NCBI GenBank assembly: GCA_003388505.1
Contig: QQVO01000009.1
Coordinates: 1-64,000 of the forward strand
Length of the DNA stretch: 64,000 nt
Direction of reading: 5' to 3'
Source: Planctomycetota bacterium
GTDB taxonomy: Bacteria > Planctomycetota > Planctomycetia > Planctomycetales > Planctomycetaceae
The notes beneath the pieces were generated by a model. It was given only the letters and a program-made list of their open reading frames with translations. It was not told the origin of the DNA and did no database searches. Of this stretch, positions 56,971 to 62,939 are shown piece by piece (the first letter of the stretch is position 1; the number at the start of each line of letters is the position of its first letter). A program made the position numbers and the translations under genes.

Positions 56971-58848
56971 TTACTGCTTTGAGAACTGTAACGGATCGGA
57001 TCCACTGGTGTCTCCCAGCATGTAGAAGTCCATGGTCTGGCCGTTCAGATCGAGTTGGGCCAGCATCACGCCCTCGTCGTTCATCTCCATCGCCAGGACG
57101 CCGTCGTCGTCGATGCTCCACACACCGGTGACCTTCTGCGTGTCGCCCCCTGAAGTGAAGCTCCACGCGAACGTGCCGTCCTGGTCGAGATCCATCTCGA
57201 AGCTGCTGTCGCCTCGCTTGGCCGTCCAGTTACCGGTGATTTGATCACTGGTGATCGGCGACGAAGGCTTCGGCGGTTCCACCTTTTTCGGCGGATCCGG
57301 AAGCTCGGCCTCCGGATCGAGTTCGGTCAGGAGTTGCGCGGCGAGTTGATCATCCGGTTGAATCTTCAGCAGCGCCTTGAGTTGACCCGCGGCGGCGTCA
57401 TCGTGCCCCGCCGTGAGATACTGATACGCCAGCACGAACCGCGCGGCCGCCTCGTCCGGGTGAGCGTCGCGGTATGATTCCAGCGCTCTGAGTTGCTGCG
57501 TGTACGTGTCCACGCTCGGGTACAGCCCGCTGAGCGTCGTCCAGTCCCAGCCCGGTCCCACGCTCAGCACGGGATAGAGTGTCGCCGCAGCATCGGCGTA
57601 CTTGCCCTGCGCGAAGAGCACTAACGCTCGAAACTCATGGATCACGGTGTCATTAGGAAGCTCTTTGAGCGCGTCATCCGTCGACTGCAGGGCCGCGTCG
57701 TAGTCGCCGTCATAGAACTGCTGCCGCGCCTGATCAAAGGACGAGAGCGACTCATCCGGTGCCTCCGACGGGGGCGGGAGATCGTTTGGGTCGTTTGCCA
57801 GCGTCGTTTCGTCCGGCGTCATCACGATCGGTTGCGAGTAGTTGTAGACGCTGTTGTCGACAACGACCGAGCCCGTGTAATAGGGGTTGTAATACTGGTT
57901 GTAGCCGAAGGCCCAGCCGACGCGGTTGACGGCCCACGTCGTGAGACCGAACGCGGTCATGGCGGGGTACCTGTTCCACCAGTAACCCCAGTAGCCTCCC
58001 GGTCGCCAGTAGCCGTGCCAGTGCCCGTTGTGCCAGTGGCCGTGATAGTGGTAGTGCCTGTCGTGCCAGTTGTTCCAGTGATTGTGGCGGTCGTTGTATC
58101 GATCCCGCGCATCCGCCGGCAGTTGGTTGGGTCGATTGGCCAGCCGATCCTGCAGATTGTCACGGCGATCGCCGACATTGGGGCGTTCACCGGGTCGCGG
58201 TCGATCTCCAATTCCGGGTCGATCGCCGATTCCGGGCCGGTCTCCAATTCCCGGTCGATCGCCGATGCCCGGCCGGTCTCCGATCTCGGGTCGGTCCCCC
58301 AGGCCGGGCAACGTCGTGGGACGATCGCCGGCGCCGGGGAGTGTCGGGCGTTGGGAAGGCCGCTCGATACCGGGGCGTTCAATTCCCGGTCGATCGATGC
58401 CCGGTCGCGAGCCGCCGGGCCGTTCCACGGAAGGCCGCTCGATCCCCGGCCGCGTGCTGGGTCGGTTGCCCGGCTGAATCGACGGACGCGAGCCGGGCGT
58501 CAAATCGGGTCGCGTTGACGGACGCTGCGAGGGGCGGGCTGACGGAGTGGACGGACGAGTCGACGGACGCTGAGACGGCATCGAAGGCCGCGCTCCCGGA
58601 GACGGCCTGGTCTGCGCGGGTCGGGACGGACGGCTGTGACTCGGCATCGACGGGCGTGAAGCGGGGCGACTCGGCCGCGCTGCCGGCCGACTGGGACGCG
58701 CCGCCGGTCGGCTCACGCGACCGCCTCCCCCGCCGCCCCGGAATCCACCGCGGCCTCCGCCTCCACGACCTCGACCGTCGGCGACCATCAGGGGGGCAAG
58801 GGTCATGAGAATCGCAGCCAACGCCACCAGGGAGCTTCGTGAAAACAT
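56971..58848 (-). CDS. Secreted Pro/Arg-rich repeat protein with TPR region
   Basis: 625 residues from ATG 58848 (leader MFSRSSLVALAAILMTLAP), though the open frame reaches 59280. After a Gly/Arg-rich stretch (GRGGGGRGGFRGGGGGG) comes a long low-complexity region of RPS, RPSRP and GDRPGI repeats (about residues 40-255) and a His/Trp/Tyr-rich stretch (HNHWNNWHDRHYHYHGHW). A TPR-like region (FDQARQQFYDGDYDAALQST, LVLFAQGKYADAAATLYPV) and a C-terminal lipocalin-like beta domain (GNWTAKRGDSSFEMDLDQDG) follow. Similar proteins occur widely in planctomycetes and have no known function. Confidence 0.83.
   Translation of the reverse strand: MFSRSSLVALAAILMTLAPLMVADGRGRGGGGRGGFRGGGGGGRVSRPAARPSRPAARPSRPASRPSMPSHSRPSRPAQTRPSPGARPSMPSQRPSTRPSTPSARPSQRPSTRPDLTPGSRPSIQPGNRPSTRPGIERPSVERPGGSRPGIDRPGIERPGIERPSQRPTLPGAGDRPTTLPGLGDRPEIGDRPGIGDRPGIGDRPGIGDRPGIGDRPRPGERPNVGDRRDNLQDRLANRPNQLPADARDRYNDRHNHWNNWHDRHYHYHGHWHNGHWHGYWRPGGYWGYWWNRYPAMTAFGLTTWAVNRVGWAFGYNQYYNPYYTGSVVVDNSVYNYSQPIVMTPDETTLANDPNDLPPPSEAPDESLSSFDQARQQFYDGDYDAALQSTDDALKELPNDTVIHEFRALVLFAQGKYADAAATLYPVLSVGPGWDWTTLSGLYPSVDTYTQQLRALESYRDAHPDEAAARFVLAYQYLTAGHDDAAAGQLKALLKIQPDDQLAAQLLTELDPEAELPDPPKKVEPPKPSSPITSDQITGNWTAKRGDSSFEMDLDQDGTFAWSFTSGGDTQKVTGVWSIDDDGVLAMEMNDEGVMLAQLDLNGQTMDFYMLGDTSGSDPLQFSKQ
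58195..58310. repeat. In-frame 18-base tandem repeat
   Basis: Within the preceding gene, units of 18 bases encoding GDRPGI or GDRPEI are repeated in tandem (codons vary between GATTCC, CCGGGT and CCCGGT forms). The coding minisatellite could expand or contract by slippage and vary the length of the low-complexity region. Confidence 0.75.
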
Positions 58849-58910
58849 GGATCGAGTCTGCCTCGTTGATGCTGTGTCGGATTCGCCGTCGCCGCAGAGC
58901 GATTCGATAA

Positions 58911-59972
58911 TCAGTCTTCGTTCGGTTGCGGAGGCAAACGAACCATCGTGACGGGGTCGCTGGATTCCCGCATCTCGTCTCCGACGATCAGGCCCTGGTG
59001 CTGCCAGATAATCATCTCTTCGTCGACGACGGTGTAGACCGCGGTGCCGGTCGTCGTCTCGCCATCTGCGGTGACTCCGGCGGATGTGACGATCCACTGG
59101 TCGTCCTGCCGCGTCCACAATCCTGTGAAGAAACCCCCTTCCGAATCGAACGTCCAGGACCGCAGCTTCTTGCGGGAGGCGTCCCAGCCGATGCGCTGAA
59201 CGCCGTTCATCTCGAGGCCCTCGTACGTCTGCACGGTGAACTCCCGCAGCAGATAGTTCCCGTCCTCCGACCAATTGCACGAAGTGTGAACAACGGTGTC
59301 ATCGTCCTGGTTCACCCAGTCGCCCAGCAGCCACTCCAGTTGCCGCAGTTGCTCCTGCCGGCTCGCATGCTCCCGGGGGAAGTCCTTGAGCGTATTAATC
59401 CGCCACTTGCCGTCCCCTCCTTTCAGATGCAGGGCGGCATATTTTGAGGTAAATCGCGGTGCGTCGGCGGACTCGGAAGAGACGACGATTCCCTCTTCCA
59501 GAGCGACGGTGTCCGAGATGCGACGCACGCTCAAGATCTGGATTTCTTCGATCAGTGCGTCCGGAGAATGATCGAAGACGTTCTGAAACATCGCGACGAT
59601 CGCATCGCGACCCACGGTGCGCTCGCCGAACTCGTCCAGAACTTCCGCGTCTTCCGTGAACATCTCTCCGATTGCTGCTGCATCACCACTCCGGTAAGCC
59701 TCCAGGAACGCCGCGGCCGAGTCCCAGAACGGTTTCTCTTCGTCCGGGATCTCAAAGCGTTCCTCGGCTTCTGATTCGTCATCGGCGATGGCAGCGACTG
59801 CCGTCGTTGGTGGCGCCGGGCACGACGCCCGTGTTCCTCCCACCAACTCGCAAGCAGTTCCCGCAGGCAAATCCGCGCGCATTGCGACGCCGTCGTTGAA
59901 GGCGGCATCCCCCAGGACTGCTCCCAGAAGAGATGCCGAGAGACAGAGCAGGAGAATCGTCAGCTTGCGCAT
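58911..59972 (-). CDS. Secreted SnoaL-like/DUF4440 protein with C-terminal lipocalin-like domain
   Basis: 353 residues, Sec leader ILLLCLSASLLGAVLG. Residues of about 78-200 form a SnoaL-like (SgcJ/EcaC-type) domain: AAAFLEAYRSGDAAAIGEMF, TEDAEVLDEFGERTVGRDAI. The second half (LRQLEWLLGDWVNQDDDTVV, SEDGNYLLREFTVQTY, GVQRIGWDASRKKLRSW) is a lipocalin-like beta-barrel seen after such domains in planctomycetes. Binding rather than catalysis is likely, and the ligand is unknown. It lies 62 bases upstream of the Pro/Arg-rich gene on the same strand. Confidence 0.82.
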   Translation of the reverse strand: MRKLTILLLCLSASLLGAVLGDAAFNDGVAMRADLPAGTACELVGGTRASCPAPPTTAVAAIADDESEAEERFEIPDEEKPFWDSAAAFLEAYRSGDAAAIGEMFTEDAEVLDEFGERTVGRDAIVAMFQNVFDHSPDALIEEIQILSVRRISDTVALEEGIVVSSESADAPRFTSKYAALHLKGGDGKWRINTLKDFPREHASRQEQLRQLEWLLGDWVNQDDDTVVHTSCNWSEDGNYLLREFTVQTYEGLEMNGVQRIGWDASRKKLRSWTFDSEGGFFTGLWTRQDDQWIVTSAGVTADGETTTGTAVYTVVDEEMIIWQHQGLIVGDEMRESSDPVTMVRLPPQPNED

Positions 59973-61940: not shown

Positions 61941-62939
61941 ATGGAAACCAGAATCACATCGATGACGGTCGTCGCTCTACTGCTGTCGATTGCCGCCTGC
62001 TCCACACAGAAACCGCCCGAAGCGCAAGTGGGCGAAACGCAGGTCTCCGACGCGGCCGAGTCCTGGTCACCGCAGGCGATTGACCGGCCCCATCTGCCGA
62101 ACGCTTACCGGTTGCATCCGAAGGTGATTTCGGGAGGGCTGCCCGACGGCGAGGAAGGATTCCGTGAATTGAGCGAACTGGGCGTCAAAACGGTCATCAG
62201 CGTCGACGGAGCCAAGCCGGACGTCGATTCGGCGCAGAAGTACCAACTCCGCTACGTCCACCTCCCGCACGGTTATGACGGCGTCCCGGAGGAACGGGCC
62301 CAAGAACTGGCGAAGGCGGTCCGCGATCTGCCGGGGCCGATCTATATCCACTGCCATCACGGCAAACACCGCAGCCCCGCCGCCGCAACGGTCGCTTGCG
62401 TCGGTTCCGGGCTCCTCGAAGCGGACCTGGCTCTCTCCGTGCTACGCACCGCCGGAACGAGCGAAAACTACCTGGGCCTGTACGAATCCGCCAAGTCCGC
62501 CCGACGGTTCGAAGACGACCTGCTCGACGCCCTGGAGGCGGAGTTCCCCGAAACGGTCGACGTCCCTCCGATGGCCGAAGCGATGGTTGCGATCGAGCGC
62601 ACCTTCGACCGCTTGCAGGCGTTCAGCAGCAACGACTGGCAGCCGCTGGAGGAACATCCCGATCTGGACGCCGCTCACGAAGCCCTCCAGCTTCGAGAAC
62701 ACTTCACGGAACTACTGCGAACCGAAGAAGCTCAACGACGGCCCGCCGGTTTCGTGGAAGCCCTTCGCGAAAGCGAACTGGCGGCAACTGATCTCGAGAC
62801 AGCCTTGCGCCAAAGACGCGATTCGGCTCAACCAGTTCCATCGGCGGCGCATAGTTCGCTGGACCGGCTCGCCGCCGATTGCAAGTCTTGCCACCGCCAG
62901 CACCGGGACGTCCCGCTCAGCGAAAAGCAACGTCCTTGA
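61941..62939 (+). CDS. Lipoprotein: tyrosine phosphatase fused to a cytochrome c'-like haem domain
   Basis: 332 residues from ATG 61941. A lipoprotein leader ends in the lipobox IAAC (Cys20). Residues of about 50-165 form a dual-specificity/tyrosine phosphatase: RLHPKVISGGLPDGEEGF, then HCHHGKHRS with nucleophile Cys138 and Arg144 (HCx5R). Beyond it is a helical region of about 140 residues ending in CKSCHRQHRD (Cys314, Cys317, His318), the CxxCH plus downstream Arg at the C-terminus typical of cytochrome c'. Together this would be a periplasmic phosphatase with a covalent haem. No similar fusion is known to me. The start excludes upstream open frame that crosses a repeat. Confidence 0.83.
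   Translation: METRITSMTVVALLLSIAACSTQKPPEAQVGETQVSDAAESWSPQAIDRPHLPNAYRLHPKVISGGLPDGEEGFRELSELGVKTVISVDGAKPDVDSAQKYQLRYVHLPHGYDGVPEERAQELAKAVRDLPGPIYIHCHHGKHRSPAAATVACVGSGLLEADLALSVLRTAGTSENYLGLYESAKSARRFEDDLLDALEAEFPETVDVPPMAEAMVAIERTFDRLQAFSSNDWQPLEEHPDLDAAHEALQLREHFTELLRTEEAQRRPAGFVEALRESELAATDLETALRQRRDSAQPVPSAAHSSLDRLAADCKSCHRQHRDVPLSEKQRP

Follow-up and report, generated by a model that had tools for sequence, protein, structure and literature searches.

We describe a planctomycete gene at positions 61941 to 62939 (+) of the window (the whole 64,000-nucleotide stretch of DNA analyzed) whose product joins, in one polypeptide, a phosphatase-like domain and a domain resembling class II c-type cytochromes. 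On a narrow balance of the evidence, we read the product as a Cys-based phosphatase of the cell envelope, probably lipid-anchored in this organism, with a class II c-type redox haem as its permanent partner. Computation supports the underlying observation, i.e., that both domains lie in one confidently modelled chain with catalytic and haem sites intact and that the pair is widely kept in Planctomycetota. The initial annotation had noticed the joining of an HCx5R phosphatase motif to a helical region carrying CxxCH, and the motifs themselves, a match to the tyrosine phosphatase TpbA, and a structural model with a mean pLDDT of 95.1 bear this out.

The two halves come from known superfamilies, but the combination, which the initial annotation did not recognize as a described family, was not found in print in the literature searched. 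No published phosphatase-cytochrome c fusion was among the matches listed in searches on this pairing, made in a library with a minority of subscription papers, or among those listed for the literature on NaxLS, TpbA, haem ligation, and Siw14/PFA-DSP. If the haem gates the phosphatase, the protein would directly link electron flow to extracytoplasmic phosphate signalling or scavenging.

Gene product and export

The open reading frame (61941..62939, +), whose identification is reinforced by homologues, encodes 332 amino acids plus a stop, with a lipobox (IAAC) at residues 17 to 20, HCHHGKHRS at residues 137 to 145, and CKSCHRQHRD at residues 314 to 323. Upstream of 61941 the frame is open as far as 61395; relatives, though, begin near a signal peptide. 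The signal peptide with its lipobox (61941..62000, +) was recognized by eye and has Cys20 (codon 61998 to 62000) as the predicted lipidated residue. The 332-amino-acid product is predicted from these features to be a lipoprotein, in agreement with the earlier claim of an exported lipoprotein, and we infer that it is exported to the cell envelope. A strict lipobox rule of our own definition is satisfied in 48 of 158 relatives. Haem would presumably be attached by the assembly system of the organism itself, and its genome encodes two cytochrome c assembly family proteins.

Distribution and conservation of the fusion

When compared with Pfam as a single sequence, the window protein finds models for both of the proposed halves, PTP-SAK (E 5.5e-4) and Cytochrom_C_2 (E 0.027; 15.8 bits against a cut-off of 26.5 bits), but both matches lie below cut-off. 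Because the protein alone matches both halves only weakly, the family had to be gathered. A protein search of 99 genomes, including that of the organism itself, gave matches in 55 and full-length matches (rows with E below 1e-30) in 52 by hand count; in three genomes (G003, G066, and G093), only the phosphatase half was matched. C-x5-R and CxxCH are kept in 52/52 of the full-length proteins (L128 included), a retention that speaks against a chance origin of the motifs. A scan of one genome per species across bacteria and archaea yielded 166 confirmed relatives, and 80 of these were retained. They carry mostly planctomycete names; the few others comprise Verrucomicrobia, Pedosphaera, and Abditibacteriales and, in addition, some that may be misnamed assemblies.

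The same fusion was sought in other planctomycetes with an alignment of 105 sequences (A1; profile length, 297). Some match was found in 238 of 392 Planctomycetota genomes, and 132 of the 392, by hand count and with the genome of this organism included, encode the two-domain protein, scored as a row that extends to at least position 291 of the 297-position profile (three further rows end early). G586, the genome of a relative bearing the name Verrucomicrobia, was chosen because it was known to carry the gene; 33 of 240 genomes of its phylum match at E <= 1e-10, with both domains in two of the 240, one being G586 itself, and the other listed matches covering the phosphatase half. Two planctomycete plasmids also carry the fusion gene, and their public annotations read "dual specificity protein phosphatase" or "hypothetical protein," with the haem domain unmentioned.

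The 193 loci collected comprise 191 matches, 186 of them full-length and 158 distinct; the 158 relatives are not independent, with an effective number of 140 at 80% identity. Seven residues are invariant (158/158): C138, G141, R144, M215, C314, C317, and H318. The initial annotation had made its fusion depend on the presence of CxxCH in close homologues, and the motif is found in close and distant homologues alike. Since the species scan used as queries peptide pieces that contained both motifs and the Met, conservation was recounted on 90 distinct members from searches without motif seeding, and the P-loop Cys and Arg, M215, both haem Cys residues, and the haem His were again found in 90/90. 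Four residues that follow the P-loop helix (T173, Y177, G179, and L180) are near-invariant. One genome with a full gene also has a truncated copy of the cytochrome half (L133:3113-3496, -) beside a large recombinase-like gene; by eye, it looks like a duplication remnant.

Phosphatase domain

Assignment of the first half (about residues 45 to 200; 62073..62540, +) to the PTP/DSP superfamily is supported by its P-loop and by its modelled fold. With the single sequence, phmmer retrieves TpbA (4r0s) at E 2.2e-5, and 2m3v, labelled by its depositors as a putative uncharacterized protein, is matched at E 8.8e-6; the family profile matches TpbA 4r0s at E 3.9e-9. In fold comparisons (VIA) of the modelled half, the TpbA 4r0s structure is the best match (Z 16.0, with 156 residues aligned at an rmsd of 3.1), with a Foldseek E of 6.2e-8, and AtPFA-DSP1 and Siw14 are matched with Z 14.4 and 14.7. 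The catalytic P-loop, HCHHGKHRS (62349..62375, +), contains the predicted nucleophile C138 and R144, as indicated by conservation in the 158 relatives, and its histidines are nearly constant (H139 in 155, H140 in 154, and H143 in 156). The candidate general acid, D113 (62277..62279, +), faces the TpbA Asp in the profile alignment; this position is Asp in 127 relatives and Asn in 21.

With respect to substrate, likeness to TpbA suggests a phosphoprotein. Phosphotyrosine is no likelier than a phosphoanhydride or a nucleotide-like compound, because AtPFA-DSP1 has the same Lys-His-Arg ending of the P-loop; the accessible part of its report describes it as an inositol-pyrophosphate phosphatase and proposes that it acts without an amino acid general acid (PMC9038691). 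The loss of Asp at position 113 from a fifth of the family would fit that proposal. The P-loop terms had no match in the accessible part of a further paper (PMC10653929).

A different chemistry has to be weighed here: the protein may be a redox enzyme rather than a phosphatase, in which the HCx5R loop performs a sulfur reaction (e.g., through a Cys138 persulfide) or a thiol reaction and the cytochrome removes the electrons. The top NCBIfam match of the window protein is the bifunctional sulfur transferase/dioxygenase Blh, albeit far below cut-off (E 0.0024), and 55 of the 105 members of A1 match the BLH_phosphatase model at E <= 0.05. The general acid is also not Asp in 31 of 158 relatives, and Ser145 is replaced in 60, the position being Ser in 98, Gly in 57, and Ala in 3. 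Yet the Cys, Gly, and Arg of the loop are kept in all 158 and the Asp in most, and the best named match, by fold and by sequence, is a tyrosine phosphatase. We consider a redox enzyme rather unlikely, and the domain fusions described below bear on the same choice.

Cytochrome domain

The second half (about residues 203 to 323; 62547..62909, +) is a class II c-type cytochrome, as supported by Pfam, profiles, models, and fold, and covalent haem is predicted from its motif. The attachment motif CKSCH (62880..62894, +), in helix 4, provides C314 and C317 and the predicted fifth ligand, H318, all present in 158/158 relatives, and is followed by R322 (62904..62906, +), an arginine four residues past the haem His that is found in 157/158, with a gap in one. 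Across A1, 87 of the 105 members match Pfam Cytochrom_C_2 at E <= 0.05 (best E, 2.8e-8). A profile of the domain (A2) matches cytochrome c' (3vrc; E 3.6e-6), cytochrome cb562 (5awi; E 4.1e-6), and cytochrome c-556 (1s05; E 2.1e-4).

AlphaFold2 prediction of the mature chain from A1 gave a mean pLDDT of 95.1 and a pTM of 0.89, and the ten-residue blocks from residue 161 to residue 200 (mature numbering), which span the domain join, have means of 95 to 98 each. The initial annotation had anticipated a confident four-helix bundle whose last helix carries CxxCH, and this is what was modelled: the predicted C-terminal helices occupy mature residues 191 to 211, 225 to 246 (with one break), 250 to 271, and 282 to 303, and CxxCH (295 to 299) would lie inside the last of them. 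Modelled alone, the domain has a pLDDT of 95.8. Its best match in fold comparison is NaxLS (Z 13.2 over 105 residues; rmsd, 2.6), followed by b562 derivatives and cytochrome c' (Z about 11 to 12). Fold alone fails to discriminate the cytochrome half because other, unrelated helical bundles, e.g., the designed bundle 6w6x (11.8) and GIT1 (11.2), also score Z 11 to 12 in the same comparison. With Foldseek, the domain alone gave nothing at E <= 0.001, the first match being a cytochrome c' at E 0.10. The domain profile, unlike fold, does discriminate, and by this sequence comparison the cytochrome half is related to class II cytochromes.

The same genome encodes two further class II cytochrome-like proteins, one of 393 amino acids (contig C22, L164:658-1839) with CTPCHNKFR and a short tail at its end and one of 160 amino acids (contig C11, L165:1471-1953) with CNACHEQF near its end. 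Only the longer one passes the Pfam cut-off.

Haem ligation

The predicted sixth (distal) haem ligand is M215 (62583..62585, +), in helix 1, as indicated by its invariance (158/158 relatives; 105/105 in A1) and by structural-alignment offset. Structural alignment with cytochrome b562 pairs domain residue 7 with residue 1 and domain residue 120 with residue 106; by gap-free counting along helices 1 and 4, M215 would fall on b562 residue 7 and H318 on residue 102, which we take to be the two haem ligands of b562. The NaxLS alignment pairs domain residue 6 with residue 25, and the starting offset would put M215 on residue 32, the position of a Cys named in the titles of mutant entries and presumably a haem ligand. 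Because only the alignment end points are reported, both placements of M215 depend on an assumed gap-free step. Sequence-profile alignment instead puts b562 Met7 opposite I218, three residues off M215, but only 18 of 158 relatives have Met at position 218, whereas all have it at position 215.

His/Met ligation is likely on these grounds. We rate it slightly lower than we otherwise would because in one cytochrome c', that of Rhodospirillum molischianum, a Met near the distal position is reportedly not an iron ligand. Even so, the invariant Met would occupy the sixth-ligand position of b562 and NaxLS, which makes a His/Met redox haem likelier than an open, five-coordinate haem that binds NO or CO as in cytochrome c'. 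His/Met ligation would fit electron transfer better than gas binding. The domain had been called cytochrome c'-like: the class II bundle and CxxCHxxxR agree with that description, but its sequence favours a His/Met class II cytochrome over a strict cytochrome c'.

It had further been suggested that either redox change or NO/CO binding at the haem controls dephosphorylation, and redox is the better reading given the invariant Met. In the gas-sensing version, a class II haem that is open, or opens readily, would bind NO or CO, and binding would switch the phosphatase. A distal Met that need not bind iron, like that of the Rhodospirillum protein, would permit this, and cytochrome c' relatives do appear in the domain profile search. 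Moreover, the closest structural match, NaxLS, is described in the accessible part of one paper as nitric oxide-binding (PMC11897245). The accessible part of another paper describes NaxLS as a low redox-potential complex (PMC7438415). A Met at the b562/NaxLS distal-ligand position in every relative is, however, more constant than a space-filling residue needs to be, and we regard a gas sensor as unlikely.

Additional fused domains

Four genomes from a single genus (G387, G445, G465, and G467) encode an extra N-terminal domain in frame with, and ahead of, the phosphatase and cytochrome. Two of the four proteins were scanned against Pfam, and in both the extra domain is a glutathione peroxidase (E 8.4e-41 and 1.9e-39); the proteins of the other two genomes align over nearly the whole three-domain query. 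The peroxidase-phosphatase-cytochrome proteins include those at L159:859-2346 and L162:820-2355. In a fifth genome of this genus (G469), the two parts are encoded apart. Two genomes of another genus (G439 and G556) have a Na+-dependent nucleoside transporter ahead of the phosphatase-cytochrome pair, identified by Pfam at L166:1415-3772 and by the same layout, a 760-amino-acid frame, at L210:1071-3353. The fused partners hint at a connection with the membrane and with peroxide/thiol chemistry.

The peroxidase fusions would be at home in a redox enzyme, and the D113 position is Asn in the peroxidase-fused proteins (L159, L162, L176, and L177). The nucleoside transporter fusions better suit a phosphatase, in particular one that would convert nucleotides to nucleosides for import.

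A Na/Ca exchanger precedes the pair in one genome (L169), and here the P-loop is changed to VTCETGRDR with the haem site intact. This protein raises the alternative that the family is an electron carrier with a scaffold, in which the cytochrome does the work and the phosphatase domain merely binds a phosphorylated ligand. The haem site is indeed kept in 158/158 relatives, but the catalytic Cys and Arg are just as invariant, which binding alone would not demand, and we judge the alternative improbable.

A 513-amino-acid frame (L184) has an extra 200 N-terminal residues with a cysteine-rich part (CNEREDDLCPTPADLCCE) ahead of the phosphatase half. Apparent C-terminal extensions at L101 and L109 were rejected as fusions, since the stretch lies beyond a stop, and the very long frames of L167, L168, L170 to L173, and L181 seem, by eye, to be overlong upstream readings in which a signal peptide starts inside.

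Gene neighbourhood and covariation

Comparison of 128 loci, including short and near-duplicate ones, showed the commonest group of neighbouring genes at 12 of them. Of 93 nearby same-strand neighbours, 91 were scanned (two long ones, L099:1904-5998 and L052:2036-5935, were left out), and the top family, Radical_SAM, accounts for 4 of the 91. Among these 128 loci and 91 neighbours, there was no operon partner or conserved neighbourhood that names a partner or substrate. Upstream of the fusion gene in the window, a 769-amino-acid frame (56971-59280, -) contains, by eye, a long Pro/Arg/Ser repeat stretch.

Covariation was analyzed in the 158 sequences (effective number, 140). The highest-ranking interdomain pair comes ninth, and its signal may stem from lineage. 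One of many intradomain pairs, A212-D323, is consistent with helices 1 and 4 coming together at the haem.

Proposed function

We propose that electrons pass between the haem and either the respiratory chain or peroxide/thiol chemistry, and that the haem thereby sets phosphatase activity. This could occur in two ways. First, the redox state of the haem could cause a shape change that is transmitted through the domain contact and moves the active-site loops. Second, the haem could keep the oxidation-prone catalytic Cys138 reduced: the thiolate of Cys-based phosphatases (PTPs) is easily oxidized, and an attached electron carrier could therefore protect or switch it. The wide occurrence of the domain pair across the phylum suggests that dephosphorylation may respond to extracytoplasmic redox conditions. 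More tentatively, and with rather less than even confidence, these proteins may constitute phylum-wide haem-regulated phosphatases in which the cytochrome reports the redox state of the envelope or repairs peroxide-damaged Cys, such that dephosphorylation follows electron flow. The built-in peroxidase of one genus may be part of the Cys-repair variant.

Comparison with known systems

TpbA of Pseudomonas aeruginosa (PDB 4r0s and 4r0t) resembles the first half in fold, in sequence, in its HCx5R loop, and in having an Asp at the place of D113. It is exported to the periplasm but is not known to have a haem domain or to be a lipoprotein; its solved chains (length, 161 to 165) consist of the phosphatase domain only, and its P-loop reads HCKHGNNRT rather than HCHHGKHRS.

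The best fold match of the second half is NaxLS (Kusta0087/Kusta0088; PDB 6r6m, 6r6n, and 6r6o), which comes from the anammox planctomycete Kuenenia and consists, according to the accessible part of PMC8388095, of two small cytochromes in complex. The window protein differs from it in having, by offset, Met rather than Cys at residue 32 and in being a single fused chain rather than two separate small cytochromes, and NaxLS has no phosphatase half.

The class II His/Met cytochromes b562 and c-556 share the four-helix bundle, and by the alignment end points b562 residues 7 and 102 would lie opposite M215 and H318; in the window protein the bundle is fused to a phosphatase, and natural b562 is not known to carry CxxCH. 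Cytochrome c' (Pfam PF01322) shares CxxCHxxxR at the C terminus, and its model is the one matched by 87/105 relatives, but the window family has an invariant distal Met and the window protein itself scores below the Pfam cut-off.

AtPFA-DSP1 and Siw14, atypical DSPs whose substrates are inositol pyrophosphates, are eukaryotic cytoplasmic enzymes not known to contain haem. The P-loop residues of AtPFA-DSP1 given in the accessible part of its report, Cys150, Lys154, His155, and Arg156 (PMC9038691), have the same spacing as C138, K142, H143, and R144 of the window protein.
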